Source of the DNA: Rhodospirillales bacterium
Lineage (GTDB): Bacteria; Pseudomonadota; Alphaproteobacteria; Rhodospirillales; UBA2165
Direction: 5' to 3'
DNA length: 53,190 nt
NCBI GenBank assembly: GCA_012960465.1
Contig: DUBF01000069.1
Coordinates: 73,246 to 126,435 of the forward strand
A program made the translations under genes and the position numbers. Within the stretch, counting starts at the first letter, position 1. Each line of letters starts with the position of its first letter. Below, piece after piece: positions 1-53,190 of this stretch. Under the pieces are notes generated by a model, which saw nothing but the letters and a program-made list of their open reading frames with translations, was not told where the DNA came from and did no database searches.

Positions 1-484
1 CGTCCGCAGCGACCGCAACAACGCCAGTTTTCGATTTAGCGTTAGAGAAATGCACCAAAACACCGTCATCATTCTGTTCAACTCCAGCACAGCTATGGTC
101 TAACTTAATCGCATCGGGACCTAGCCTATCCAAAACCGCCTCAAATAAAACCTGATGGAGATCTGCACGATGAATAGAAAAATGTGGGAATTCATATCCC
201 GCAAATCGGCCGCACGGCTCGGAAAATATAAGCTGACCATGGCGATTATAATAAGTAAATTCTTTCGCCTCTACACCAAAAGCCTTTAAATTATGCTCCA
301 GACCAAGAGCACTTAACTCCCGAATAGCGTGCGGTAACATGTTAATACCAACGCCAAGTGGCTTAAACTCTGGCGCCGCCTCATAAACACGACAAACCAT
401 ACCACGCGCATGTAATTCTAGCGCCAGCGTTAGCCCCCCTATACCGCCACCAATTATCACAATTTCCTGATTTTTATCTTTCAT
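1..484 (-). CDS. FAD-dependent monooxygenase, PHBH/salicylate hydroxylase type (partial, C-terminus off window)
   Basis: Only the first 161 codons are present; the gene runs off the left edge. The N-terminus begins MKDKNQEIVIIGGGIGGLTL, a Rossmann GxGxxG dinucleotide site, and the strand ends in an acidic residue (VYEAAPEF) that normally binds the FAD ribose. A GVGINMLPHAIREL segment and the FSIHRADLHQVL segment are typical of group A flavin monooxygenases. These enzymes hydroxylate aromatic or related rings using NAD(P)H and O2. The gene diverges from the YciI protein at 666. The start is the ATG whose complement lies at 482-484. Substrate cannot be inferred from this fragment. Confidence 0.85.
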   Translation of the reverse strand, partial: MKDKNQEIVIIGGGIGGLTLALELHARGMVCRVYEAAPEFKPLGVGINMLPHAIRELSALGLEHNLKAFGVEAKEFTYYNRHGQLIFSEPCGRFAGYEFPHFSIHRADLHQVLFEAVLDRLGPDAIKLDHSCAGVEQNDDGVLVHFSNAKSKTGVVAVAAD

Positions 485-665
485 AAAATTAGAGAACCCC
501 ATATTAGCCGATAGGCTACCTGATTAAGTTAAAGATAATACTCCATCCCAATATGTTCAATTTAATAATTTTATAAGGGTTATCAATTGTGTTTTCAGAA
601 GATCGAAAATATGGCAAGTATAAATCCATTATTCTTTGAAAAAGGAAGGTCCTTTGGGAACTTAA

Positions 666-1286
666 ATGCAATATTTTACGTGGGGAATAAATAAACCGGG
701 GACCACAGAGAAGCGAACGTCTTTAATAAGAACGCACTGGGATTTTATAGCTAATTTTGATAAAAACCTGATCGCTCGCGGTCCTGTTTTGGACGAAGGA
801 GACCTAAGTGTTGTTATTGGCTCAATACACATTGTAGAACTCGAAAATCTGACTAAAGCCGAGGATTTTACTTATAATGAGCCATTTGCCAAAGCTGGGC
901 TTTTCAAATCTATCATCATCAAGCCATTCAAACTAGAAATAGAAAGAAACCAATTCGATTTTATAAGTAATCCAAATTTTATACGATTTTTTATATATTG
1001 CCCAGCAACGGTCGACCCAAAAGAAATAAGTCCAGAACTAGCTGAGGCTCACAAAGTCTACTGTAAAAGATTCGATAAGAATTTTATTTGTCATGGATCA
1101 CTTTTAACCAATGATCATACTTGGCAAGGCAATATATATTTTCTTGAATTTGCTAATAAACTTGATATCGATAAATTTCTCAAGAGTGAACCTTTTGCAA
1201 AGTCGAATATTTACGATAAGATAGAGATATTCCGGTGGACAATGGGGGGTCCGGAGAACCTTAATGTTGCCGGAGCCTTGAGCTAA
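666..1286 (+). CDS. Tandem YciI-like domain protein
   Basis: 206 aa with two copies of a YciI-like ferredoxin-fold domain, roughly residues 1-95 and 105-200. Both copies carry a length-matched pattern: an HW or AHKVY segment near the start, a GPVLDE or GSLLTND turn, and an EPFAKAG or EPFAKSN motif near the end. YciI-domain proteins are usually about 95 aa and some are hydrolases or dehalogenases; a His-Asp pair is normally catalytic. The gene lies 7 bp before an alpha/beta hydrolase on the same strand, so the two may be co-transcribed. A tandem fusion is less common than the single domain. Function is unknown. Confidence 0.75.
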   Translation: MQYFTWGINKPGTTEKRTSLIRTHWDFIANFDKNLIARGPVLDEGDLSVVIGSIHIVELENLTKAEDFTYNEPFAKAGLFKSIIIKPFKLEIERNQFDFISNPNFIRFFIYCPATVDPKEISPELAEAHKVYCKRFDKNFICHGSLLTNDHTWQGNIYFLEFANKLDIDKFLKSEPFAKSNIYDKIEIFRWTMGGPENLNVAGALS

Positions 1287-1293
1287 AACAGAC

Positions 1294-2064
1294 ATGCAAC
1301 TCTCCATCTTTAAAAATATTTTAATCCGATCCAGTGCTGACAACACAGACATGGCTTTATGGTGTTTGCCAGGATTTGCCGATAGCGGTACAGCCTTCTC
1401 AGCTCTCCACCATACAGTATTTGCAAACTCAACTCGGATAATTACACCTGATTTACCCGGGTTTGGATCTAGTCCCGTTAATAATCATTCCTGTACGATA
1501 AAAGCATACGTTGCCACATTACTTGAACTTATTAATGAATTAACACCAGATGAAAAAATCGGTTTTATCGGTCATTCAGTTGGCTCTATCATAGCGGTTG
1601 AGGCTGCACTGAATTTAGGAGATCGCTGTATAGGCGTATTTTCAATCGAGGGTAATTTAACTGAAGAAGATGCCTATTTTTCAGGTCAGGCAGTCAATTT
1701 TATAAAGCCACAAGAATTTAAAAACTTATTCACCGATAAAATCTGGGCCAAAGGTAAAAACAACGACATCTTTCGTACTTACTTTAGCGGTTTAAAACAA
1801 GCTGACCCAACAGCAATGTGGCACTTTGGCAAAGACGTGAAGCGATATAGTCAAGATGACCAGCCAGGGAGAAAAGTTATGGAACTTGGCTGTCCATTTC
1901 TTTATTTCTGGTGTCTAGATAATACACCGATCGCATCTCAAAAGTTTTTAGACTCAAACAAAATCAACAACGTCCAAATAACCGGCACGAGCCACTGGCC
2001 AATGATCGATGCGCCAGAATTAACGGCAAAACATCTATTAAAATTTTTCGAAAAACAAAAATAA
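1294..2064 (+). CDS. Alpha/beta hydrolase
   Basis: 256 aa. The nucleophile elbow is GHSVGS (about residues 92-97), the oxyanion strand region WCLPGFADSG lies near residue 24, and the likely catalytic His is in GTSHWPMIDA near the C-terminus. The overall pattern LPGFGSSP followed by GHSVG matches the MhpC/BioH-like class of soluble hydrolases that cleave esters, C-C bonds or thioesters. It has no signal peptide, so it is probably cytoplasmic. It follows the tandem YciI gene by 7 bp. The substrate is not recognisable. Confidence 0.8.
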   Translation: MQLSIFKNILIRSSADNTDMALWCLPGFADSGTAFSALHHTVFANSTRIITPDLPGFGSSPVNNHSCTIKAYVATLLELINELTPDEKIGFIGHSVGSIIAVEAALNLGDRCIGVFSIEGNLTEEDAYFSGQAVNFIKPQEFKNLFTDKIWAKGKNNDIFRTYFSGLKQADPTAMWHFGKDVKRYSQDDQPGRKVMELGCPFLYFWCLDNTPIASQKFLDSNKINNVQITGTSHWPMIDAPELTAKHLLKFFEKQK

Positions 2065-4079: not shown

Positions 4080-5012
4080 TTAATCTGGACTATATTTACC
4101 TGTCAACTGAGGCGCATGAGGCGGCTCAAGGCCCTTATTCTTCCTGGCTAGTCTTGTCGTTCTTTCCCACGTCCGTTTAAGGTCGTCACGAATATTCACT
4201 TTTAATCGGCCCATACCCTCACATTCCAACTCGACAGTATCACCATCATGAAAAGGATTCAGTCCACCATGGTTTGTTCCTGTGGCAATAATGTCTCCGG
4301 GCTCAAGGGTATGAACATGACTGATAAACTCAATACATCGTTTAATATTATGGGCCATATCATTTGTATTAAAATCCTGCATAATTTGTCCATTAACCCA
4401 CAACTTGATGGGCAACTCCTGTGGATTGGCGATTTCATCTTTAGTAACAAGGTATGGACCAATAGGTGTAAAAGTTTCACGCGCTTTCATTTGGAAAAAA
4501 ACATTAGAGGCCGGAGGCAGTCCACGAGCAGATCCATCTATAAAATTTACATACCCAAAGACGTAATCCATCGCGTCGCCTTGGCTCACTTGATAGCAGC
4601 GTTTACCAATCACAACTCCTAACTCTCCTTCTCCCTCAAAGACTGTAGCGGGAATATCCTGAAGAACCATTGTATCATTGGGTCCAATAACGCTATTGGA
4701 TGCTTTAGTGAAAGCATTAATGGCAGGGGTCTCGGTTAACGTACCATCCTCCATATAATTTACAGCCATACAATCTATATTAACTGGACGCGGAAGAGGC
4801 GGACGTATCCGAACGCTACTGACAGGAACACCCTGCGCGCTATTTACAGCTTTCTCCAAAAGGCTGCGGTACTGATCAAAGTTCTCTATTAACCCATTAA
4901 CCAGGTCGTGTGGGCCAACCATTGGTATGCCACTTACTTTATCACTCACATCTATAACGTTGTCCCCACTCAAAATCCCAAGTCTGAAATCATCAAAAAA
5001 TAGAATTTTCAA
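4080..5012 (-). CDS. Fumarylacetoacetate hydrolase (FAH) family protein
   Basis: 310 aa. The C-terminal FAH fold is clear from residue about 75: EGEGELGVVIGK carries two metal-binding Glu residues, YVFGYVNFIDGSAR supplies the Asp, and GDIIATGTNHG is the usual terminal motif. Family members hydrolyse or hydrate 2-oxoacid C-C or ring-cleavage products (for example fumarylpyruvate or 2-oxohept-3-enedioate), usually in aromatic catabolism. The start is TTG at 5012, supported by GGGAG 7 nt upstream. It diverges from the RraA-type gene at 5162, so the 149-bp gap probably holds both promoters. The exact substrate is not assignable. Confidence 0.85.
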   Translation of the reverse strand: MKILFFDDFRLGILSGDNVIDVSDKVSGIPMVGPHDLVNGLIENFDQYRSLLEKAVNSAQGVPVSSVRIRPPLPRPVNIDCMAVNYMEDGTLTETPAINAFTKASNSVIGPNDTMVLQDIPATVFEGEGELGVVIGKRCYQVSQGDAMDYVFGYVNFIDGSARGLPPASNVFFQMKARETFTPIGPYLVTKDEIANPQELPIKLWVNGQIMQDFNTNDMAHNIKRCIEFISHVHTLEPGDIIATGTNHGGLNPFHDGDTVELECEGMGRLKVNIRDDLKRTWERTTRLARKNKGLEPPHAPQLTGKYSPD

Positions 5013-5161
5013 AATACTACTCCCTCATAGATAATGTGATCTTACTGTTTATCATTCGGTTAAAATATTAATGTTGCAAGCAAAAACAGCACAAATGCGT
5101 GACAATTAAATTGAATCCCTCCAAAATTAGATTCTGAAATAGAACAAGGGGGCTTCTAGTA

Positions 5162-5794
5162 ATGAGTACAAAAATAAGTGATGAAATTTTAAGGGCAGCA
5201 TCAGAAATTTCGGCTGCAACAATGCACGAAGCGGCCGGTAAAATAGGCGCCCTTCCTTCTTATTTAAAACCTATTTCGTCTGGTATGAAGATTTGTGGAC
5301 GGGCATATCCCGTTAAAGGACCTTCCGGTTGTAACCTTTGGCTCCATAGGGCAATTGCGAAAGCTAAGCGCGGTGATGTACTCATAGCAGACATCGGAGA
5401 CGATAAAGAGTTTGGCTATTGGGGAGATATCATGGGCACCAGCTCAATAACCAAAGGTATAGCTGGGCTTGTCATAGATGGGTGCGTTCGCGATCAGTTT
5501 GAATTGGAAGAAATGGGATTTCCCGTTTTTTCTTCAGGTCTTAGTATCCGAGGCACAGAAAAGAAATTTGATGGGAAAGGATCACTTGAAGAGCCTATAA
5601 TCTTAGGCAATATAGCAATTGAACATGGTGATCTAGTTTTGGGTGATAATGATGGGATCGTCATTATTCCCGCCAACCAAGTCGAGGACAGTATAACCAA
5701 ATCGATAGAACGCGAAGATAAGGAAGACGCAACAAAAAAGCGTCTTCGTGATGGCGAAACCACAATGGCAATATATAATTGGCCAGAAAATTAA
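5162..5794 (+). CDS. RraA-family protein, probable class II 4-hydroxy-2-oxoacid aldolase
   Basis: 210 aa. The motifs WGDIMGTSSITKGIAGLVIDG and CVRDQFEL (Arg-Asp, about residues 109-110) are those of the RraA / HMG-CHA aldolase superfamily. In aldolase members, Arg and a metal-coordinating Asp act on 4-hydroxy-4-methyl-2-oxoglutarate-like substrates to give pyruvate and a second oxoacid. True RraA proteins are RNase E inhibitors, but a catabolic context (FAH hydrolase, alcohol dehydrogenase, cupin) favours the aldolase or a decarboxylase role. GGGG lies 9-12 nt upstream of the ATG. The next gene follows after 18 bp and is probably co-transcribed. Confidence 0.8.
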   Translation: MSTKISDEILRAASEISAATMHEAAGKIGALPSYLKPISSGMKICGRAYPVKGPSGCNLWLHRAIAKAKRGDVLIADIGDDKEFGYWGDIMGTSSITKGIAGLVIDGCVRDQFELEEMGFPVFSSGLSIRGTEKKFDGKGSLEEPIILGNIAIEHGDLVLGDNDGIVIIPANQVEDSITKSIEREDKEDATKKRLRDGETTMAIYNWPEN

Positions 5795-5812
5795 AAAGGA
5801 AAAGGAATTAGC

Positions 5813-6946
5813 GTGGCAAGTATTTTAAATTTCCCCCCCATCCATTTTGATTTTGGAGCCATCAAAGAGCTTACTCTTGAGCTCGATAAAAGACAAATTG
5901 ACCGGCCTCTCGTTATAACTGACCAAGGTCTTGTAGAGCATGGTGTCTACGGGAAACTTCGCGATGCATTGCCGAGTGATATGGCAGTTTCTTTGTTTGA
6001 TAGAATTCCAGAAAACCCAACCATCTTAGGAGTTGAACAAGCACTTGAAGTATATAAAAAAAATAACTGTAATGGTATTATTGGGCTCGGTGGAGGATCC
6101 ATACTTGATTCTGGAAAAGCCCTAAGGGTTATAGCAACTCATGATATATCATTAATCGATATTTTGGGTAATTTAGATAAAATAACGGCTAATGTGGCAC
6201 CTTACATAACGATACCAACTACCGCAGGCACCGGTGCAGAAATTACTTTTGGAGGAGGCATCCACCCGGAACCTAATGCACCAGCCTTCGGTATTCGTAG
6301 TATGCACGTACGGCCCGATCTCGCTATCTGTGATCCGGAATTCACTATGACATTACCTCCGCGATTGACAGCTGCAACGGGTATGGACGCCCTCACCCAT
6401 TGCGTCGAAGGTTTTTTATCCAATAACTCCAACCCTCCAACCGAAGCAATTGCTTTGGATGGTGCTCGGCGTGTTATCAATTTTATCGATCGAGCCGTAA
6501 CGAATGGTGACGACCGCGAAGCACGTTCAGAAATGTCGATGGCAGCACTTGAGGGAGGGATGGCAATCTATATGGGATTAGGCCCAATTCATGCCCTATC
6601 AATGACGTTTGGAAATAGTCCGCTTCACCATGGCACTCTTGTTACAGTTGCTATGCCAGCTGTTATGAGATTCTATAATGGTAAAATCGAAGGTAATGGT
6701 TTGGAGCGAATTGCCGAGGCAATGGGTCTTACTGCAGACAAGGAATCCGGAAATCGTATAGCTGATGCTGTAGCAGAAATAAATGCTAAGTTGGGCCTTC
6801 CTTCAACTGTGCGGCAAATGGGTTATGATAAAACTGATATTGAACAAATGGTGAAGGACTCTTGTGAAAGCCATTTTAATATTTCAGCACCTACTCGACC
6901 CAGTGCGGACGAATATGAAAAAATAGTTGTTGAAGTATTAGGTTAA
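5813..6946 (+). CDS. Iron-containing alcohol dehydrogenase
   Basis: 377 aa, class III (iron-dependent) alcohol dehydrogenase. GLGGGSILDSGKA (about residues 96-108) is the nucleotide site and IPTTAGTGAEIT is conserved. Metal ligands are visible as Asp and His in GMDALTHCVEGF and two His in GPIHALSMTFGNSPLHHG. These enzymes oxidise or reduce alcohols, or reduce maleylacetate in aromatic degradation. The start is GTG at 5813, preceded by AAAGGAAAAGGAA. It follows the aldolase-type gene by 18 bp, so one pathway could produce a carbonyl compound that this enzyme reduces. Substrate unknown. Confidence 0.88.
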   Translation: MASILNFPPIHFDFGAIKELTLELDKRQIDRPLVITDQGLVEHGVYGKLRDALPSDMAVSLFDRIPENPTILGVEQALEVYKKNNCNGIIGLGGGSILDSGKALRVIATHDISLIDILGNLDKITANVAPYITIPTTAGTGAEITFGGGIHPEPNAPAFGIRSMHVRPDLAICDPEFTMTLPPRLTAATGMDALTHCVEGFLSNNSNPPTEAIALDGARRVINFIDRAVTNGDDREARSEMSMAALEGGMAIYMGLGPIHALSMTFGNSPLHHGTLVTVAMPAVMRFYNGKIEGNGLERIAEAMGLTADKESGNRIADAVAEINAKLGLPSTVRQMGYDKTDIEQMVKDSCESHFNISAPTRPSADEYEKIVVEVLG

Positions 6947-7055
6947 AAAGCTGTTTCCTGCACCCCCGCTAAAGTTCGATTAATGCATAGATTTCTCTTA
7001 AAAATACCACGGTGATTGAAATACCTTGATTTACGCCGACTACTAAACTTATTTA

Positions 7056-7883
7056 TTAAAGGCCATCATCTTGTCCATGAATATGATAGGCGATCTCACG
7101 AGCAGGTTTACGTCCTTCACTATCAATACCAGTCGGTAGCCATGCGCATACGTTCGCACCCGGAGACCAAACCGTCTCACACGGACCTGGTACAAAGAAT
7201 TCGACAAATACCGCCTCGGCATCACTCTCATTAATAAAAGTATGGAGTTCGTGCTCGTAATTATAGAGAACATCCCCAACTTCAAGTTCCTGTCGGTCCC
7301 CATTGAGTAGTGCTGTAATGCGTCCTGAGATAATATATTGAAAATGTTCTGCACCTACATGGTGGTGCTCAGGGGCAGCCGTGCCCGGTGGATAGGTAAT
7401 CATCTCACCCTTAAATGCATTCGTACCCGTCAGTGCAGGCGTAGCCATATAAATCCTCTTACGAGCATCATGCTCAGATTCTAAAATAGGTTCTCGCGTC
7501 CAGTCAGTATGACGCAAAACCCTTGGCATATCGTTTATATCAGGATCAAACCGTTGAGCATCGGACACACGCGCGACAAGCACGACGGCATCACCTTCAC
7601 CGGAAACAAAGTTACCATGAAAACCTTGCGGTAAATATGAAATTAAATCAGGTGTTAGGGTCTCAGTCATACCCTTAAACGATCCTCGACCTGACAAAAC
7701 CTGCACCCAACCTACTGCGCCGCTCTCAAGCACCAAATTATATTCTGCATCAGATGCAACTTTTATATAGTCCAGAAGAATTTGATCATTACCAATTACT
7801 TCCGGCTGCAGCAGGCGGATTATATCACATCCTGGTGATACAATAGTTGGTTTTTGATCGATGTGTCTTATAATAACAGGCAC
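7056..7883 (-). CDS. Bicupin protein with one intact metal site
   Basis: 275 aa with two cupin domains, about residues 30-105 and 150-245. The C-terminal cupin has a complete metal motif: PEHHHVGAEHF followed by the second-motif His in ELHTFIN. The N-terminal cupin has lost its His ligands (VLSGRGSFKG, then LPQGFHGNF). This resembles bicupin dioxygenases and isomerases of the gentisate dioxygenase or quercetinase type, but no specific family is clear. The start is GTG at 7883 with GAGGGAA upstream. It lies 22 bp downstream of the esterase at 7906 on the same strand, so they form a two-gene unit. Confidence 0.75.
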   Translation of the reverse strand: MPVIIRHIDQKPTIVSPGCDIIRLLQPEVIGNDQILLDYIKVASDAEYNLVLESGAVGWVQVLSGRGSFKGMTETLTPDLISYLPQGFHGNFVSGEGDAVVLVARVSDAQRFDPDINDMPRVLRHTDWTREPILESEHDARKRIYMATPALTGTNAFKGEMITYPPGTAAPEHHHVGAEHFQYIISGRITALLNGDRQELEVGDVLYNYEHELHTFINESDAEAVFVEFFVPGPCETVWSPGANVCAWLPTGIDSEGRKPAREIAYHIHGQDDGL

Positions 7884-7905
7884 TTTATTCCCTCATAAAT
7901 TAACC

Positions 7906-8823
7906 CTAAATAATTTTATTGATGAAATCTATAATATCAGGTCCCACGCCATTATCACCAGAACCAATGGAGTAAACTTGCGACACATGATTATGACCGC
8001 ACATTTGCTTATAACGCGGGAACCAATCAAATTTAGAACCAATTTCCAATAATAACTCTACGCCAAATCGCTCCCAACCAATAGGATCATATTCTGCAGT
8101 TGAAATCATAATCGGGGTTTTACCATGATCTACATTCCCTAAGATTGCCATTTCAGCATATTTATCGGATGGCTCACCAAAATAAGCTATTTGATTAGGC
8201 GCCGCATTCTCAGAACTATTGCCATAAACACCAGACATTAACATCGCCCCAGCGCATCCAGGTCCATCATCTGGATGCATTGATTTACGAAGTACATAAG
8301 TTGACACATGACCTGCACCTGCAGACTGACCAAGTAAAAATATTTTCTTTGGGTCGCCCCCGTAGGCGGTGATATTTTCTCGCGCCCAATCAAGAGCATT
8401 GCCAACATCAACAGCTCCATCTGGCCAGCTTGCCTCTGGAGCAAGTCGGTAAGTCGCGTTAATGCCAATCATTCCGTTACGTACAAAAAAATTAGCGACA
8501 TTACCATGTAATAAATCTCCCTCAACATTTTTATGCCCTTGCACATAGCCACCACCGTGAAAGAAAATAACGGTAGGTAATTCGGCTGTATTCTCATCTC
8601 CTAAGTGAATATCTAATATATTTCTCGTGTCAGACCCGTAGGCAACATCCCTTATAATTTTGATCCCACTTCGATCTATTTTTCTGAGAACGGGCATATA
8701 TATTTCCTTCGTTCTCTCAAGCACATCTACACTAAATACTTTACCCATACTCTTGATTTCCGCCGCAATTTCTTCGGGTATATTGTGGATACGCTGTGCC
8801 GAACGACTATCTAACTTATTCAT
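7906..8823 (-). CDS. Alpha/beta hydrolase, carboxylesterase (HSL-like)
   Basis: 305 aa from the ATG at 8823, which has GGGGA 8 nt upstream; an in-frame start at 8892 would run into the divergent gene's promoter and is less likely. HGGGYVQGHK is the oxyanion-hole motif of hormone-sensitive-lipase-type esterases, GQSAGAGH holds the nucleophile Ser, and CGHNHVSQ probably carries the catalytic His. No signal peptide. The gene is paired with the bicupin and divergent from a second hydrolase at 8931, which suggests that a single ester- or amide-containing substrate is processed here. Confidence 0.82.
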   Translation of the reverse strand: MNKLDSRSAQRIHNIPEEIAAEIKSMGKVFSVDVLERTKEIYMPVLRKIDRSGIKIIRDVAYGSDTRNILDIHLGDENTAELPTVIFFHGGGYVQGHKNVEGDLLHGNVANFFVRNGMIGINATYRLAPEASWPDGAVDVGNALDWARENITAYGGDPKKIFLLGQSAGAGHVSTYVLRKSMHPDDGPGCAGAMLMSGVYGNSSENAAPNQIAYFGEPSDKYAEMAILGNVDHGKTPIMISTAEYDPIGWERFGVELLLEIGSKFDWFPRYKQMCGHNHVSQVYSIGSGDNGVGPDIIDFINKII

Positions 8824-8930
8824 ACATAAAATCCCCAAAATTAATTTTCCTAAAATATCAGAACCATAATCGCTGGCTGGTGATAATTCCAATAGTCTTT
8901 TATAATAATACGCAAAAGAGGAAACAACCT

Positions 8931-9791
8931 ATGATCTATCTGAATTATAACCAGGAAGAATTAGATGCCCAATACAATCAGGCAACTTTAGTTCCCGATA
9001 TTACATCCTATATAGAATATTGGACAACAGCAGGGTCAAAGGCGCGCAAATCTTTAACATGTAAATTAAATGTTGCATATGGTACGTCCGACGTTACACA
9101 TCTCGATATATTTCCAGCGACGGGCAAGAAAACTCCCATTCATGTTCACATTCATGGAGGTGCATGGCGTCAACTCAGTAAAGAGCACGCCTCTTATCCA
9201 GCCCCTCATTTTGTATCAGCTGGAGCCACTTTTATTGCACTAAATTTTGGTCTGGTACCTGAGTATTCACTTGGCGAAATTGTCGATCAAGTCCGTGAAG
9301 CAATAAAATGGATTTGGCAAAATGCCGTCTCTTTCAATGGAGATCCTGATCGAATATTCATCTCAGGGGTCTCTTCTGGTGCACACTTAGCTGCAACTAT
9401 TTTATCGGATGACTGGCGCAAAAAACTTAATCTACCGGAAAATGTTATAAAAGGCGCTGTTCTTGCAAGTGGTCCTTATGATCTAGAACCCGTGAGATTA
9501 AGTGCCAGAAACAACTACCTAAACCTTAATCAACAAGAATCAGATCGGAACAATCCTTTAAAGCATATCCCGCAGGTAGGATCGGAAATTATAATCTGCT
9601 GGGGAGATCGAGAATTGGATGAATTTCAGCGGCAAGGCCAAGCTTACGCAGAGGCTTGGCAAGCTGGCGGTAACCCCTGCAAAGTTATAACCCTTAAGGC
9701 CTTAAACCACTTTGATGTCGCCAATGAATTTGGCCACGCCGAAAGCCCATTATTCCGAGCTACGTTAAAGCAAATGTCTCTGATAAATTAA
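8931..9791 (+). CDS. Alpha/beta hydrolase, arylformamidase (KynB)-like
   Basis: 286 aa from the ATG at 8931, which has AAAGAGGAAA upstream; in-frame codons back to 8796 overlap the divergent gene and lack a ribosome binding site. [11 protein letters not shown] (oxyanion region), [20 protein letters not shown] (nucleophile Ser) and [11 protein letters not shown] (catalytic His) match the arylformamidase-like esterases. Kynurenine formamidases of this type hydrolyse N-formyl amides, but other family members are general esterases. No kynurenine-pathway genes are linked. Its end overlaps the convergent ureG stop by 4 bp. Confidence 0.78.
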
Positions 9792-10399
9792 ATCTTTAAG
9801 CCACCTTTATCTATGACGAAGTCAATAATTTCAGGCAATCCTTTATTCTCTTTTAGATTGGAAAAATAGAAAGGTTTTTCACCGCGCATTTTTTTCGCAT
9901 CACGATCCATTACTCCTAGATCAGCACCAACAAAAGGAGCAAGGTCTATTTTGTTAATGACCAATAAATCGGATCGCGTTATCCCCGGACCACCCTTGCG
10001 AGGAATTTTATCACCGGCAGATACATCAATCACATAAATTGTAATATCTGCCAGTTCTGGTGAGAAGGTTGCAGCTAGATTATCACCGCCACTTTCAATA
10101 AAAATGATATCAAGCCCTGAAAACTTTTGACTAAGCTCTGAAACGGCTGCCAAATTCATCGAGGCGTCTTCCCGAATAGCAGTATGCGGACACCCGCCAG
10201 TTTCAACCCCCAAGATACGGTCTGCAGCGAGTGCTCCCGACCGTGTCAAAAACTCGGCATCTTCCCGAGTATAAATGTCATTTGTAATGGCAGCGATGTT
10301 AAATTTTTCTCGCATGGCCTTGCACATCCGGTCCAGCAAGGCGGTTTTTCCTGTTCCTACAGGACCGCCAATACCCACCCTGAGAGGATTTGAAGTCAT
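9788..10399 (-). CDS. ureG: Urease accessory GTPase UreG
   Basis: 203 aa SIMIBI GTPase that drives nickel insertion into urease with UreF, UreD and UreE. The P-loop [17 protein letters not shown] is at residues 9-25, [15 protein letters not shown] and [18 protein letters not shown] are the switch regions, and [13 protein letters not shown] supplies the guanine-specificity NKxD. The [17 protein letters not shown] segment has the CPH nickel/zinc-binding motif. There is no His-rich N-terminal extension. It overlaps ureF by 4 bp (ATGA) and is the last gene of the urease operon. Confidence 0.97.
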
Positions 10400-11100
10400 G
10401 ACCTAAACAACCTCGTATATTGTGTTTCATGTTTCATCGAAGCCCAATCGATGATTGGTGCCGCCGTTCCAAGATCCTCAATCTTACCCAAAAATATGGT
10501 CTCCGTCATATCGTTAATACTCGATTTTAATTCTTCAATACATCGTTGACCAGCAACCTGCCCGAGTGGCACCAAGCGGATCCCCGCCGAAACCAAATTG
10601 ACCGAGAATGCATGAAAATAGGCAAGTAGCGCAGCTCGGAGCGGAATATCAGAAGCAGCTGAAACAACTGCCACAGCAGTAGCGTAGGTAGCTTGACGCC
10701 CCGTATTACCTATAACTTCGATGGCATTATCAAGTTTTTCTAACTTCCATATTTGGGACACCGTATCGAGAAAAGCTTTTCCCTGAGAACTACTTTCTAG
10801 CGCCATTTCGGAAGTGCCGCGCATAACATCCGAGCGCTCAACTGCCCATTGTAACTCTTCAAATTTATTCTCCATAACAGCGGTCCAGGCTAACTTAAAG
10901 AGGGCACCATCAATACGTCCAGTTCCCTTGCTGAGGGCTGCATTAATCCAGAGACACAAATCATCTACGTTCTTTATTCGCCCTTCCTCAACCGCATATT
11001 CAATTCCATGGGAATAAACATAGCCGCCCACCGGAAAACTAGGCGACAGTAAAGTCATCAAATCAAGAAGCGCTATATTTGATAAGGTATTAGTGGCCAT
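10396..11100 (-). CDS. ureF: Urease accessory protein UreF
   Basis: 234 aa. Family motifs include [18 protein letters not shown] near residue 15 and the [19 protein letters not shown] segment near the C-terminus. UreF bridges UreD-urease and UreG and couples GTP hydrolysis to nickel delivery. The start chosen is ATG at 11100, which begins [18 protein letters not shown] and overlaps the 3' end of ureE by 11 bp; a 28-residue upstream extension would lie wholly within ureE and is not family-like. Overlap with ureE and ureG implies translational coupling. Confidence 0.95.
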
Positions 11101-11560
11101 AGAGGTGACCGTCTGTATTTTTAGAAATATTATAAGCACCCTGTTCAGGCGAAAATACTGCTTTATTGCGTATAGTTTTCGCACCCAACCCTTCTAACAT
11201 GATCTCCAAAACATGGTCATAAGTGATGCGAAGTATCCCATTATCAAGGATCTGGACAGGCGTGTGACGATTGCCAATATGCCAGGCAATTCGAGCTGCC
11301 TGGGCCGTTGTCGCACACTGTATATCCAAAACGTCCTCTTCAGCTGCCTTGACCGCTATGACCCCGCCTTCTTCCAGAACTAATGCGTCGCCCTCTTCCA
11401 ATTGAACTGCCTCAGCCAGATCCAGCAAGAGGGCGGCGCCATCATCATCGTGCATCTTAATTCGGCGACGATAGCGATCTTGATAAGGCAATGTAATAGT
11501 TCCGAGAACTTCATCTTTGCCCCAGTTATCGGCATGAATAATATTTATGGCGCGTCGCAT
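11090..11560 (-). CDS. ureE: Urease accessory nickel metallochaperone UreE
   Basis: 156 aa. The N-terminal peptide-binding domain begins [13 protein letters not shown], and the C-terminal nickel-binding domain has AWHIGNRHTPVQI, with the conserved His, and YDHVLEIMLEGLG. The C-terminus ends HLYGH and lacks the long poly-His tail of some enterobacterial proteins, so storage of many nickel ions is unlikely. The last base of the ureC stop and the first base of this gene share position 11560. Confidence 0.95.
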   Translation of the reverse strand: MRRAINIIHADNWGKDEVLGTITLPYQDRYRRRIKMHDDDGAALLLDLAEAVQLEEGDALVLEEGGVIAVKAAEEDVLDIQCATTAQAARIAWHIGNRHTPVQILDNGILRITYDHVLEIMLEGLGAKTIRNKAVFSPEQGAYNISKNTDGHLYGH

Positions 11561-13269
11561 TAGAATAAAAAATATCGCTGAGCTAAGGCAAGTTCTTCGG
11601 CTGGCTCACAAACCAAAAGCTCTCCGTCAGCCCGAACTTCGTAGGTTTCTGGATCCACTTCCATCTTGGGCTGATAATCGTTTAGGCGCATATCTTTTTT
11701 CTTAACCGAACGCGTTCCGGAAACAGGTATTGTTCTCTTAGAAACACCAAGTTTCCCGGCAATGTCAGAATTGGCAGCTGCTTGTGAAACAAATGTTACC
11801 GAACTTTCAGTCAGCGATTTTCCAAATGCACCAAACATAGGTCGATAGTGTACCGGTTGCGGTGTCGGAATCGAGGCATTTGGATCTCCCATTGCCGCCC
11901 CAGCAATTGTACCGGCTTTTAATATGATATCTGGCTTTACACCAAAGAGCATCGGCTTCCAAAGGACAAGATCAGCAAGTTTACCCACTTCGACTGAACC
12001 AACATGCTCAGCTATCCCATGTGAAAGTGCCGGATTAATTGTATATTTTGCAATATAACGCTTAACCCTAAAGTTACTATTGTCGCCAGTCTCTTCAGGC
12101 AACGCACCCCGTTGTTTTTGCATTTTATCGGCTGACTGCCAGGTGCGAATTATTACCTCCCCAACCCTACCCATAGCCTGACTATCCGAAGCAATCATAG
12201 AAAAAGCGCCAAGATCATGAAGAATATCTTCTGCAGCAATAGTTTCCCGACGAATTCGACTTTCGGCAAAAGCAACATCTTCTGGAATTTTGGCATCCAA
12301 GTGATGGCAAACCATCAACATATCTAGATGTTCATCTACGGTATTAACCGTAAAAGGCCGAGTGGGGTTCGTTGAAGACGGAAGGACGTTAGCTTCACCG
12401 CATATTTTAATGATGTCTGGAGCATGGCCGCCGCCCGCACCTTCAGTATGGAAGGCATGGATCGTCCGATCCTTAAAAGCGGCAACCGTGTTTTCAACAA
12501 AACCAGCTTCGTTAAGTGTGTCTGTATGGATAGCAACTTGAATATCCATTTCTTCAGCAACGTTCAGACAAGTATCAATTGCTGACGGTGTTGTACCCCA
12601 ATCTTCATGCAGTTTCAGTCCACAGGCCCCAGCTTCTACTTGCGCCTTCAATTCTTCAGGCTGCGATGCATTGCCTTTACCAAAAAAACCAAGGTTCATA
12701 GGCAGACCTTCTGCGGCCTGCATCATGCGGCCAATGTGCCAAGCACCAGGCGTACAAGTGGTCGCATTAGTGCCTTCGGCTGGACCCGTACCACCGCCGA
12801 GCATAGTTGTTATACCCGAATAAAGAGCATCATCAATTTGCTGGGGACTTATCCAGTGAATATGGGCATCAATACCCCCGGCAGTTAAGATGCGCCCTTC
12901 GCCTGCTATAGCCTCAGTACCTGGACCAATAACAATATCAATATTGGATTGAATATCTGGATTGCCAGCTTTACCGATTGCGTTAATACGGCCATCCTTT
13001 AATCCTATGTCCGCCTTAATAATACCTGTATAATCAACGATCAATGCATTAGTAATCACAGTATCGACAGCACCGCCTTCGCGGCTGACCTGGGACTGCC
13101 CCATCCCATCGCGGATCACTTTACCGCCGCCAAACTTTACTTCTTCACCGTAACTGGTCAGATCCTCTTCCACTTCGATAAAAAGGTCTGTATCAGCAAG
13201 CCGGACTTTATCACCGGTTGTCGGACCAAACATAGTAGCGTATGCAGAACGTTCGATTTCATAAACCAT
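11560..13269 (-). CDS. ureC: Urease alpha subunit (catalytic)
   Basis: 569 aa, full length. It hydrolyses urea to ammonia and carbamate at a dinickel site. By sequence position the ligands are His136 and His138 ([11 protein letters not shown]), carbamylated Lys219 (GLKLHEDWG), His248 (AIHTDTLNE), His274 ([10 protein letters not shown]) and Asp362 ([10 protein letters not shown]); the flap Cys-His is at 321-322 (MVCHHLD). All expected residues are present. It is encoded as a separate protein from UreA and UreB, the usual proteobacterial arrangement, and starts 1 bp into the ureB stop. Confidence 0.98.
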
Positions 13270-13583
13270 TATAAGTCTCCAAGTCCGCCCTGTATTTTGG
13301 CATTAAACCCAAAAACTTGGCGTTTACCTTGAAAGGCAACTAGCTCAACTTCACGTGCTTGTCCTGGCTCAAACCGAACAGCCGTACCCGCAGGAATATC
13401 GAGCCTAAAGCCTCTCGCAGCTTCCCTTTCAAAATCTAGAGCCTCATTAGTTTCATAGAAATGAAAATGGGAGCCTACCTGTATGGGACGATCTCCTGTA
13501 TTGATAATTTTTAATTTTATGATTTCCCGACCCTCATTGAGAGTAATCATTCCATCTTTAGTTATAATCTCACCAGGTATCAT
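13269..13583 (-). CDS. ureB: Urease beta subunit
   Basis: 104 aa. MIPGEII at the N-terminus, [18 protein letters not shown] and [11 protein letters not shown] are the family signature. UreB is a structural subunit of the (UreABC)3 trimer. It overlaps ureC by 1 bp and follows ureA by 10 bp. Confidence 0.97.
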
Positions 13584-13593
13584 GTCAGACCCC

Positions 13594-13896
13594 TCAACGT
13601 ATCGGCTGATGCACGGTTACAAGTTTTGTGCCATCGGGAAATGTTGCTTCAACTTGAATATCGTGGATCATCTCCGCAATGCCATCCATTACTTGATCAC
13701 GTTTTAGCACATGCGCACCCTCAGACATCAAGTCGGCAACACGGCGACCATCCCTAGCACCCTCAACAACATAATCACTAATTAATGCAATCGCTTCAGG
13801 ATAATTTAACTTCACACCCCGCGACAATCGCTTGCGTGCAACCTCCGCTGCCATCGCAACCAAAAGTTTATCTTTTTCTCTTGGTGAGAGATTCAT
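13594..13896 (-). CDS. ureA: Urease gamma subunit
   Basis: 100 aa from the ATG at 13896, matching the usual family length. [12 protein letters not shown] and the [10 protein letters not shown] and DGRRVADLM segments are canonical. AGGGAGG lies 7 nt before this ATG, so an in-frame TTG six bases upstream (13902) is rejected as the start. It follows ureD after a 72-bp gap that has no other gene. Confidence 0.97.
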
Positions 13897-13968
13897 TGCC
13901 AATCCTCCCTTTGGATTAATTATTTCCAGTAAAAATCTTTTCTTAAAAAAATCATTATGATCAATTTA

Positions 13969-14844
13969 TTACATATTCCATAATCGTGGTAGCTTGGCTG
14001 GAAGGCCAGCAATTTTATTTCGAAAAGCACCCCAAAACGCGCAAAAATCATTACGCAAATCTAATATATCTTTGCTAAGCCAGCGGATTATTAAAATTTC
14101 ATTGACACATGTTACGCTGGATAAAACGCCACTATTTAGGCTCTCAAGAAATTTTTGCACGACCGGAAGATTATCTTCGGCATCCGGTCCAATATAAACC
14201 GTGGTCGCCATCGACACTGCGCCATCAAAACAAGCTGGATCAGCTATGATTGAAGCTATATCATCTTGCATATGAAGCGCATCCACCCACACCAATTTCC
14301 CATCCCTAATTATTTCCCAACCATCATGTATAAGGCCTGTCTGAAAATGCTCCCCATACCCTAACCGGCCAAATACCACTATCTCACCGGCAATCAGTTT
14401 GCCGTCTCGCTCAACATTAACATGCGTTTGACGTCTTAAACGGGAACCTTCAAATAATATTGTTTCCTGTGGTATATACTCTAACCAACTGCCAGCTTCG
14501 ACTATAAGATTTATTTCTATTTTAGAATCCGTACCCGCAGAGCGATAAACTTTCTCGGCAGATTGTGTAGTTACCAGCGCATTTGCCTTTTTTTCTACCG
14601 TAACCTCAACTGAAATTTTATCCCCGCCCACCAAACCACCGGCAGTATTAACAACCACTGCCTGGGTAATATCCTTGTCAGGAATATTAGGGAAAAGAAT
14701 ACGCTGAGGGTCACTCTGGTACAAATCCCTGAGCCGTGTAACTCCTTCAGCATCGGCATTAAATATTAGTCGAGCCTTACCGGCGACGATAATTTTTCTT
14801 TGCTTTAAAGGTTTGTTGTTCGACTGTAAGATAGCAGTGTTCAT
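13969..14844 (-). CDS. ureD: Urease accessory protein UreD
   Basis: 291 aa. VVNTAGGLVGGDKISVEV (about residues 64-81), TTQSAEKVYRS and GSWLEYIPQETILFEGS are family hallmarks. UreD (UreH) is the scaffold that binds apo-urease and recruits UreF and UreG. It is the first gene of a ureDABCEFG operon. No urea ABC transporter, nickel transporter or regulator is next to it; the following 131 bp upstream holds no gene. Confidence 0.95.
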   Translation of the reverse strand: MNTAILQSNNKPLKQRKIIVAGKARLIFNADAEGVTRLRDLYQSDPQRILFPNIPDKDITQAVVVNTAGGLVGGDKISVEVTVEKKANALVTTQSAEKVYRSAGTDSKIEINLIVEAGSWLEYIPQETILFEGSRLRRQTHVNVERDGKLIAGEIVVFGRLGYGEHFQTGLIHDGWEIIRDGKLVWVDALHMQDDIASIIADPACFDGAVSMATTVYIGPDAEDNLPVVQKFLESLNSGVLSSVTCVNEILIIRWLSKDILDLRNDFCAFWGAFRNKIAGLPAKLPRLWNM

Positions 14845-52132: not shown

Positions 52133-53190
52133 CTACGTAATGGTAGCACCAACCTCTCGGCTCTCTGCAAGATTCCTTAAGACAAAACGCTGCAACTTAC
52201 CTGTTGCTGTTAACGGCATTTCGTCAAGGAAATATATTCGACGAGGGCATTTATAAACTGATAGATTAGCTTTTAGCGCCGCAGTTAGTTCCTTTTCAAA
52301 CTCCTCCGCTGAGTTAGTCAACTCAGGAACAACTATAAACAACGCCAATCGAATAAGGCCGTCTTCATTTGGCACCCCTACAACAGCTGCTTCAGATACT
52401 GCTTTATTTTTTAAAACCTGCTCCTCAATTTCAGCGGGACTTACCCATTGACCCGAAATTTTAAGTATATCATCGACACGCCCTTGGTATTCATAGTAAC
52501 CGGAATCATCGAACGTAAACATATCATTAGTGCAATACCAACCCTCTTTAAAAACTTCACTTGTCTTTTGTTTCATATTCCAATAACCAGAGGCAACACA
52601 TTCCATCTTCACCCAAAGAACACCAGGAATTTTTGGTTTAGTAACTATTAAACCCTCATTACTGATTAATTTTACTTCGGTTCCTGGTGTTGGCACTCCA
52701 CAGGTTCCAACAATTATATTATCTGGACGATTGGCTAAAAATAAAAAACAGGTTTCAGTAGCACCGATTCCTTCAAGAATCGGATGGCCAGTTACCTCCA
52801 TCCATTGATCAAAAAGATTTCTCGGAAGTTTTTCGCCTGCACTAAGATAATGGCGTACATTTTTGAATTCGGATTTATTTGCAACACCCTCTCGTAACAT
52901 ATTACGATAAAATGTTGGAACACTGAGAAAGATCGTTGGTTTATGTCGCTGAACAATGCTCGCTACTGCTTCTGCATCTGGCCATTCTGGATAAAGAATT
53001 ACAGTCGCTCCCAATTTAATTGGTGCCAGAAAACAATGCGCCAAAGAAAAAGCAAAAAATAGCTTTGAAGAACCATAGATACGATCACCTGGACCAACAC
53101 TCAAAATATCGCCCATTAAAGAATCAACTGCTAAAATTGAATTTTGACTGTGTATCACGCCCTTAGGTCTGCCAGTAGTCCCAGACGAAT
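52133..53190 (-). CDS. Benzoate-CoA ligase-type acyl-CoA synthetase (partial, N-terminus off window)
   Basis: 352 codons are present; the N-terminal part lies beyond the right edge. The frame at the edge reads SSGTTGRPKGV, the AMP-binding P-loop. LEGIGATETCFLFLANRPDN, VKMECVASGYWNMKQKTSEV, YEYQGRVDDILKISGQWVSP and the C-terminal LTATGKLQRFVLR, with its conserved Lys, are all intact. KLFFAFSLAHCFLAPIKLGA and RHKPTIFLSVPTFYRNML resemble benzoate- and 4-hydroxybenzoate-CoA ligases. It activates an aromatic acid to its CoA ester. The gap to DUF2125 holds nothing obvious. Confidence 0.85.
   Translation of the reverse strand, partial: SSGTTGRPKGVIHSQNSILAVDSLMGDILSVGPGDRIYGSSKLFFAFSLAHCFLAPIKLGATVILYPEWPDAEAVASIVQRHKPTIFLSVPTFYRNMLREGVANKSEFKNVRHYLSAGEKLPRNLFDQWMEVTGHPILEGIGATETCFLFLANRPDNIIVGTCGVPTPGTEVKLISNEGLIVTKPKIPGVLWVKMECVASGYWNMKQKTSEVFKEGWYCTNDMFTFDDSGYYEYQGRVDDILKISGQWVSPAEIEEQVLKNKAVSEAAVVGVPNEDGLIRLALFIVVPELTNSAEEFEKELTAALKANLSVYKCPRRIYFLDEMPLTATGKLQRFVLRNLAESREVGATIT

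Follow-up and report, generated by a model that had tools for sequence, protein, structure and literature searches.

What do six neighbouring catabolic genes of an uncultured Rhodospirillales-like bacterium act upon, and do they act together? We addressed this question for a 53,190-nucleotide stretch (hereafter referred to as the window) of contig DUBF01000069.1 (C69) in the Rhodospirillales bacterium assembly GCA_012960465.1 (G000). A sequence-only reading had placed at 4080–9791 of the window a cluster of genes for a FAH hydrolase, an aldolase, an iron-dependent alcohol dehydrogenase (Fe-ADH), a bicupin and two esterases, for which no substrate was obvious. All six open reading frames (ORFs) are present at these positions, and all six products score above the Pfam cut-offs of the named families. 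We hold it slightly more probable than an even chance that the window carries a rearranged arm split off a larger aromatic-catabolism island, three or four of the genes being its detached end, and that it does not encode a self-contained pathway. The best-supported unit is the pair of genes encoding the aldolase, RraA1, and the Fe-ADH together with that of esterase 2; it is a piece detached from an island whose kind is known and whose arrangement here is new.

Conservation of the RraA1–Fe-ADH pair

By strand and spacing, the six genes fall into four transcription units: the gene for the FAH-superfamily protein (4080–5012, minus strand); those for RraA1 and the Fe-ADH (5162–6946, plus strand), separated by 18 bp; those for esterase 2 and the bicupin (8823–7056, minus strand), separated by 22 bp; and that for esterase 3 (8931–9791, plus strand). 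The FAH and RraA1 genes, like the two esterase genes, are divergent, and the Fe-ADH and bicupin genes, like those of esterase 3 and UreG, are convergent. We compared this arrangement among relatives (n = 100), including nine genomes of the genus (G000–G008, the window genome included). RraA1 was detected, at E 1e-25 or better, in seven of the nine and was not found in G002 and G004. In six genomes (G000, G001, G003, G005, G006 and G008), RraA1 and Fe-ADH are adjacent on one strand with a gap of 2 to about 25 bp, while several other neighbours vary; in G007 they are on separate contigs. The RraA1–Fe-ADH pair is the tightly conserved piece of the window, and the two genes probably share a transcript. 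All nine genomes have a match to Fe-ADH (60% in G004, 61% in G007 and 74–100% in the others). Orthologues of esterase 2 occur in G001, G002, G003, G005 and G008; the gene is on the contig of the pair in G000, G001, G003 and G008, with Fe-ADH in G002, and on another contig in G005. Gene-order comparison, which the sequence-only reading had proposed as a check, accordingly divides the region: RraA1–Fe-ADH and esterase 2 are conserved, whereas FAH and the bicupin behave as independent and non-conserved.

RraA1 (5162–5794, plus strand; PF03737, RraA-like, 128 bits) is best read as a class II pyruvate aldolase of the kind, typified by LigK, that acts on 4-hydroxy-4-methyl-2-oxoglutarate (HMG) or 4-carboxy-4-hydroxy-2-oxoadipate (CHA), and would end an aromatic meta-cleavage route. 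When aligned with the HMG/CHA aldolase of Pseudomonas putida F1 (PDB 3NOJ), its residues R110, D111, E188, N58, G131, T132 and R184 correspond to R123, D124, E199, N71, G144, T145 and R195, and K27 takes the place of R40; seven of the eight tested residues, the metal-binding and catalytic ones included, are kept. The roles of R123, D124 and E199 in the P. putida enzyme have been described (PMC5065237). Across 15 aligned RraA sequences drawn from three groups of paralogues, R110, D111 and E188 do not vary; the positions of N58 and G131 differ in the paralogues RraA2 and RraA3, which may therefore carry out other chemistry. An RraA-family dehydratase/decarboxylase is known (PMC8563752). Besides its lysine in place of R40, RraA1 differs from the HMG/CHA aldolases in being paired with an Fe-ADH and in scoring under the curated cut-offs, just below that of NF006731 (173.4 bits against 179) and well below that of the LigK model TIGR02798 (164.1 bits against 304.5). 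Among 248 genomes of the order, relatives at E 1e-55 were found in 12, all of them in the family of the window genome.

The Fe-ADH (5813–6946, plus strand; PF00465, 128 bits, and PF25137, ADH_Fe_C, 109 bits) has as its best curated model the Cupriavidus-type 4-hydroxybutyrate dehydrogenase (NF058672), matched over the full length at 371 bits, below the cut-off of 500. A further difference from that enzyme lies in its surroundings outside the genus. Thirteen genomes of the family have a match in other genera, and five of these loci were fetched (L197, L198, L217, L218 and L219); in all five, the orthologue (62–66%) adjoins a gene for a CoxL-like molybdenum hydroxylase. GMC oxidoreductase genes were seen by eye in three of the five and TRAP genes in three, and Pfam confirmed the CoxL of L197 and the GMC oxidoreductase of L217.

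A larger island to which the pair probably belongs

As the reference for the island we used contig C275 of G008 (29.7 kb), whose gene names were partly read by eye. Its genes encode, in order, a solute-binding protein, esterase 2, LigB, a SnoaL-like protein, a Rieske protein, an Amidohydro_2 protein, an MFS protein, a second solute-binding protein, four ABC proteins, the product of an ORF, GntR, LigY, RraA2, RraA3, a Rieske protein, the products of two ORFs, Fe-ADH, RraA1, Lrp, a PDH-E1-like protein, 3HAO and ACMSD. Long parts of this order are kept in G003 and G005; in G005, LigB is on the same contig and esterase 2 elsewhere. In G003, G005 and G008, the contig that carries RraA1 also carries LigB, a LigY-type C-C hydrolase, two more RraA proteins, Rieske proteins, 3HAO and ACMSD.

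In the window genome, the orthologues of these genes are distributed over at least three contigs. Contig C47 has those of both solute-binding proteins, LigB (64%), SnoaL, two Rieske proteins, the amidohydrolase, the ABC proteins, GntR, LigY (92%) and RraA2 (85%); the window on C69 has esterase 2 (70%), Fe-ADH (74%) and RraA1 (78%); and C208 has 3HAO (73%). No orthologue of RraA3 was found in the window genome (best other RraA matches, 30–35%), and no ACMSD at E 1e-40. C47 continues into housekeeping genes (by eye, rlmH, nadD, proA, proB and obg), and therefore the parts of the island on C47 and in the window, contigs of metagenome-assembled genomes (MAGs) though they are, are probably truly apart. 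G001 is split in a similar way, with RraA1–Fe-ADH, esterase 2, esterase 3, 3HAO and ACMSD on C28, and LigB and RraA2 on C29. AzlC transporter genes adjoin 3HAO in two species of the genus, on C208 of the window genome (L207) and in G007 (L195).

As judged from sequence comparison, the families of the island proteins support a route in which O-demethylation or hydroxylation is followed by extradiol cleavage and then by C-C hydrolysis. The C47 hydrolase, which we had at first taken by eye for LigJ, matches LigY in the PDB (6e6i/5vn5) at 485 bits and LigJ at 216 bits. A Rieske protein of C47 scores 158 bits with PF19301 (LigXa_C) and 65 bits with the Rieske family. The C47 LigB scores 69 bits with the LigB family and 80 bits with its best NCBIfam subfamily, against a cut-off of 290. 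The 3HAO proteins are above the cut-offs of two NCBIfam models (240/220 and 212/146 bits in G005; 238 and 213 bits in G000), and the ACMSD of G005 matches 2hbv at 439 bits.

This set resembles the ligXa-ligZ-ligY genes of Sphingobium SYK-6, with which it shares a LigY-type hydrolase, a Rieske protein with LigXa_C, a LigB-family dioxygenase and an HMG/CHA-type aldolase. SYK-6 LigXa, LigZ and LigY act on 5,5'-dehydrodivanillate (DDVA) to give 5-carboxyvanillate and 4-carboxy-2-hydroxypenta-2,4-dienoate (PMC6874591). According to PMC12673573, the next steps are a hydration, by a hydratase unidentified in SYK-6, and cleavage by an HMG aldolase of the RraA family; the same source gives the mannonate dehydratase UxuA as the hydratase proposed in Paenibacillus. 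The island departs from the DDVA system in its extra RraA paralogues next to LigY (two in each of three species, a single one in the window species), in the solute-binding protein and ABC genes, in the attachment of 3HAO/ACMSD in four species, and in its spread over contigs in the window species; its LigB is a candidate LigZ. DDVA is a candidate for the actual substrate.

The further RraA paralogues recur beyond single genomes. RraA2–RraA3 pairs stand beside LigY in G003, G005 and G008 (L185, L187 and L189), and in the window genome the RraA2 gene overlaps that of LigY by 8 bp. The five RraA1 carriers from other genera (G009, G010, G011, G017 and G019; L190–L194) all have a tandem RraA triplet. 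In G011, RraA1, RraA3, RraA2, LigB, HpaB and LigY are encoded in one run, LigY being 90% identical over 192 amino acids before the contig ends; in G009 and G019, three esterase 2-like proteins are encoded near the triplet.

A proposed route and its weight

From these relatives a class of substrates can be proposed for a region in which the sequence-only reading saw none: meta-cleavage of dicarboxylated or methoxylated aromatics, given the LigXa-like Rieske protein, LigB and LigY. LigB would open the ring by extradiol cleavage, and LigY/LigJ-type amidohydrolases would carry out C-C hydrolysis or hydration, yielding a 4-hydroxy-4-substituted-2-oxo diacid; in the window species, LigB and LigY would be supplied from C47. 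RraA1, as a metal-dependent pyruvate aldolase, would then cleave this diacid, of the HMG or CHA type. Fe-ADH may convert a small intermediate of this route, either an aldehyde or a hydroxy acid, and esterase 2, and probably esterase 3, may hydrolyse ester-linked substrates of the island. We infer these substrates, the direction of the Fe-ADH reaction and the joint function of the genes from the families, residues, gene order and separation of contigs reported above. The lack of an obvious substrate is thereby turned into a testable proposal, namely that the genes form the last section of an aromatic island of the LigXa/LigB/LigY type (lignin-dimer-like) carried by uncultured Rhodospirillales-like bacteria. 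The catabolic character and the aldolase step that the sequence-only reading had put forward are supported.

Several observations weigh against this interpretation. RraA1 is under the equivalog cut-offs of NF006731 and TIGR02798, as stated above. Cleavage of HMG gives two pyruvates, leaving no aldehyde for Fe-ADH. In the window species, LigB and LigY are encoded on a separate contig, and no operon link is visible there. Four of the five RraA1 carriers from other genera, all except G011, have the triplet beside only distant Amidohydro_2 proteins (25–27% to LigY). In G007, which has no RraA2 and whose best LigB match is not a close one (42 bits), RraA1 is near 3HAO and Fe-ADH is on another contig. 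Finally, G002 keeps LigB, LigY and RraA2 together with a remnant of RraA1 (see below), and RraA1 seems dispensable there, in a MAG that is 57% complete.

Alternative explanations

The alternative that survives best, itself unlikely, is that RraA1–Fe-ADH serves the meta-cleavage of 3-hydroxyanthranilate from tryptophan/kynurenine, together with 3HAO, ACMSD and an aminomuconate deaminase, and not the LigY route. In G001, G003, G005, G007 and G008, 3HAO is encoded 0.5 to 4.6 kb from RraA1, with ACMSD adjoining in four; a Rid-family protein is encoded next in G001 (79 bits to TIGR00004; cut-off, 106); and the window genome has its 3HAO on C208. However, no ACMSD was found at E 1e-40 in G000, G002, G004, G006 and G007, and in G011 RraA1 accompanies LigB/LigY while 3HAO/ACMSD are on a different contig, C72. 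The usual aldolase of the 3-hydroxyanthranilate route, moreover, belongs to a different family.

We consider it rather unlikely that the six genes form one self-contained pathway, in which an aromatic or heterocyclic acid, set free by the esterases, would be opened or oxidised by the bicupin, and hydrolysis by FAH, cleavage by RraA1 and reduction by Fe-ADH would follow. Such a pathway would suit six genes lying within 5.7 kb and the order of FAH, Fe-ADH, bicupin and esterase 2 kept under purifying selection in G002; in addition, the bicupin and Fe-ADH are encoded close together and convergently on a Hyphomicrobiales contig, L055 (42 and 47% identity), and an RraA protein (34%) is encoded next to the bicupin in L072. 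The genes are nonetheless divided among four units by strand, RraA1 is a remnant in G002, FAH lacks the dyad histidine (see below), and elsewhere in the genus FAH and the bicupin are either unlinked or undetected. At E 1e-6, neither RraA nor Fe-ADH has a homologue at 67 of the 70 bicupin loci examined, many of which are short; the three exceptions include the locus of G002 itself (L033). The single ordered pathway of hydrolysis, cupin oxidation, C-C cleavage and reduction that the sequence-only reading had suggested is not borne out by the four units, the presence of the bicupin in two of nine genomes and the RraA remnant.

A variant of the island interpretation, doubtful in our estimate, is a lower pathway made up of RraA proteins only: RraA2/RraA3 would isomerise and hydrate 4-carboxy-2-hydroxypenta-2,4-dienoate, and RraA1 would cleave HMG to two pyruvates, with FAH and the bicupin as branch enzymes peculiar to the species. 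If it were true, one fold would serve successive steps, and the RraA paralogues would be candidates for a hydration in biphenyl-lignin catabolism that has no enzyme assigned to it. Such a use of the RraA triplet, as a lower pathway, would be new, and we offer it as a proposal; a limited literature search found no matching description of it, nor a paper on an RraA/Fe-ADH/FAH gene cluster.

Improbable, in our view, is a loose assembly of independent genes that share no pathway, gathered where sbmA and the formate dehydrogenase operon flank a hypervariable site. The corresponding interval of G007 (L195, 2524–15429) holds genes for a GMC oxidoreductase, 3HAO, AzlCD and RraA1 instead, and the site therefore seems to be a hotspot; the four units and the recent arrival of FAH and the bicupin at the spot agree with such an assembly. 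Against it, several species have RraA1–Fe-ADH and esterase 2 in this same island even though the neighbours of these genes differ.

Ureide (allantoin) degradation, in which the bicupin would be an (S)-ureidoglycine aminohydrolase feeding the adjacent urease operon, draws on the start of that operon at 9788 and on a ureidoglycine aminohydrolase (4e2q; Z 23.6, rmsd 2.5, 224 aligned) among the tied best structural matches, but it is highly improbable and was rejected on the TIGR03214 search, in which G000 and G002 gave one 28-bit match, on C106 and none at the window, while 9 of 14 control genomes were matched (E. coli among them; one passed the cut-off), and, further, the bicupin has no NCBIfam match, TIGR03214 included, oxalate decarboxylase and quercetinase share its fold at the same Z, and inspection by eye of the 26 neighbour clusters that recur most often at the 70 bicupin loci revealed no urease or allantoin gene.

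The FAH-superfamily protein and the bicupin

Prediction of the active sites of these two proteins, another check proposed by the sequence-only reading, indicated a three-histidine metal site in the bicupin and, in FAH, a kept metal motif without the histidine of the lid dyad. The FAH-superfamily protein (4080–5012, minus strand; TTG start; PF01557, FAA_hydrolase, 171 bits) has maleylpyruvate hydrolase 6jvv as its best PDB match (158 bits). It shares with the FAHD1/HpcE/maleylpyruvate hydrolase family the fold and the E-x-E plus Asp metal motif, E128/E130 and D159 aligning to the motif of 1gtt, 3qdf, 8sky and 6jvv. It differs in that its lid stretch, NYMEDGTLTE, has no histidine. The position of the dyad histidine (HxxE) aligns to Asp in comparison with 6jvv, 1gtt and 3qdf; in comparison with 8sky it falls in an insertion, and Glu aligns to Glu. 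In these alignments the glutamate partner is either absent or ambiguous. The lid histidine is likewise absent from 19 of 19 relatives of 62–91% identity (20 of 20 with the window protein), which have Asp, Ser or Asn there. The His30–Glu33 dyad of FAHD1 can generate the hydrolytic nucleophile, with the essential residues still to be proven (PMC8398924). We predict that the window protein is a metal enzyme but no acylpyruvase of the canonical His/Glu type, and it is doubtful that it acts as a standard acylpyruvase.

At E 1e-50, FAH relatives are present in six of the nine genomes of the genus, but only G000 and G002 have them on one contig with Fe-ADH. The neighbourhoods of FAH relatives in six other genomes gave no guide to function: genes for an SDR, a VOC protein and an amidohydrolase were seen by eye nearby in three (G014, G016 and G021), G001, G005 and G012 carry other neighbours, and no single role emerges.

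The AlphaFold (AF2) model of the bicupin (7056–7883, minus strand; Cupin_2, 52 bits, in the second barrel only) has two barrels with a mean pLDDT of 94.4. Its best structural matches are bicupins, tied across ureidoglycine aminohydrolase, oxalate decarboxylase, quercetinase and IolB, so that the fold search singled out no one family, and absence of a family from its matches is no evidence. While sharing the two-barrel fold with the first three of these (Z 22–24), the window protein has about 11–18% identity to known bicupins, a metal motif evident in the second barrel only, and a conserved linker of its own, DWTREPxLxSEHDARKRIY. Its sequence matches to the PDB are weak (28 bits or less), and NCBIfam at E 0.001 gave no match. 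In an alignment of 40 sequences, H173 is kept in 39, H175 and H214 in all 40, and E179 in 32; His173, His175 and His214 are the predicted metal site, with Glu179 variable. Our best guess is a 3-His non-haem metal enzyme, either an oxygenase or an isomerase.

Relatives of the bicupin were detected at 70 loci, many of them short, in a pattern-based scan that covered 84,980 species genomes; by record titles the loci are mostly from Alpha- and Betaproteobacteria MAGs, and no relative was found in the plasmid collection. The neighbours, tried as a guide to function, include no partner shared throughout; the most frequent cluster within 3 kb (Bug/TctC receptor by eye) occurs at 23 of the 70 loci. 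The six closest relatives apart from the sister species have 59–68% identity; in four of them (L034–L037), and not in L038 and L062, CoxG and molybdenum-hydroxylase (CoxM/S/L-type) genes follow, and a Pfam check of the latter call identified one subunit each in L035 and L036. Within the genus, the bicupin is present in two of the nine genomes, G000 and G002. FAH and the bicupin are later additions at this spot, made in the ancestor of the window species and G002, and their membership in the route of RraA1 is a candidate only. For neither the widespread bicupin family nor the FAH clade without the dyad did we find an assigned function.

The locus in a sister species

The cluster as written is common to the window genome and G002 only, the latter a sister species whose MAG has the locus on L031/L033. 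FAH, Fe-ADH, bicupin and esterase 2 are kept in the same order there, and the 519 bp between FAH and Fe-ADH (L031, 13543–14061) hold a broken RraA remnant (tblastn, 41%, 95 bits). No other RraA1 was found in G002 at E 1e-25, and a copy may lie in the part missing from this MAG. In a comparison of the window with G002, dN/dS was 0.03–0.16 for eight genes (FAH, 0.05; Fe-ADH, 0.10; bicupin, 0.16; esterase 2, 0.11), and all eight are therefore under purifying selection. The dS of Fe-ADH was 0.36, against 0.84–1.05 in the seven other genes. Twelve of the fifteen 100-bp windows across 5800–7299 are 88–94% identical to L031, compared with 78–91% identity on the FAH side (4100–4999) and 60–88% at 7400–8799. 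These values suggest a recent exchange extending over the Fe-ADH gene and the bicupin gene's 3′ end.

Esterases and flanking genes

The apparent overlap of the two esterase genes in the ORF list is an artefact of taking the first start codon; orthologue starts (L184) and ATG positions move both starts inward. Esterase 2 (7906–8823, minus strand; BD-FAE/Abhydrolase_3; PF20434, 72 bits), which shares its strand with the bicupin and is encoded upstream of it, matches 4zrs in the PDB (193 bits). Esterase 3 (8931–9791, plus strand; BD-FAE/HaHSL-like; PF20434, 66 bits), encoded divergently from esterase 2, scores 120.5 bits with NF058665, against a cut-off of 320; considered as a candidate kynurenine formamidase, it matches in the PDB the formamidase 4e11 at 45 bits, against 110 bits for the lipase 9n8r. 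An orthologue was seen in G001 only, among the stretches fetched from relatives; it has 68% identity and is 1.9 kb from esterase 2.

The right boundary is set by a urease operon, ureG to ureD (9788–14844, minus strand; ORF translations read by eye), which is outside the catabolic unit and is followed by a formate dehydrogenase operon (by eye). The benzoate-type CoA ligase reported at the right edge is present as a partial AMP-binding ligase (52133–53188, minus strand), its gene cut by the window edge; its best models are 3-hydroxybenzoate-CoA ligase (450 bits; cut-off, 1000) and the benzoate-CoA ligase family (316 bits; cut-off, 375). On the left, the flank holds genes for a YciI-like protein, an alpha/beta hydrolase, YciB and SbmA, and the reported flavin monooxygenase is likewise present, as a partial FAD-dependent protein (2–502, minus strand; PF01494, FAD_binding_3; NF005720, 204 bits). 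The YciI-like protein and the alpha/beta hydrolase (666–2064, plus strand) occur as the same pair in G002. The partial monooxygenase, this pair and an upstream protein of the acyl-CoA-dehydrogenase fold make up a set of their own at the left edge (window, 2–2064; L183, 16179–18301).

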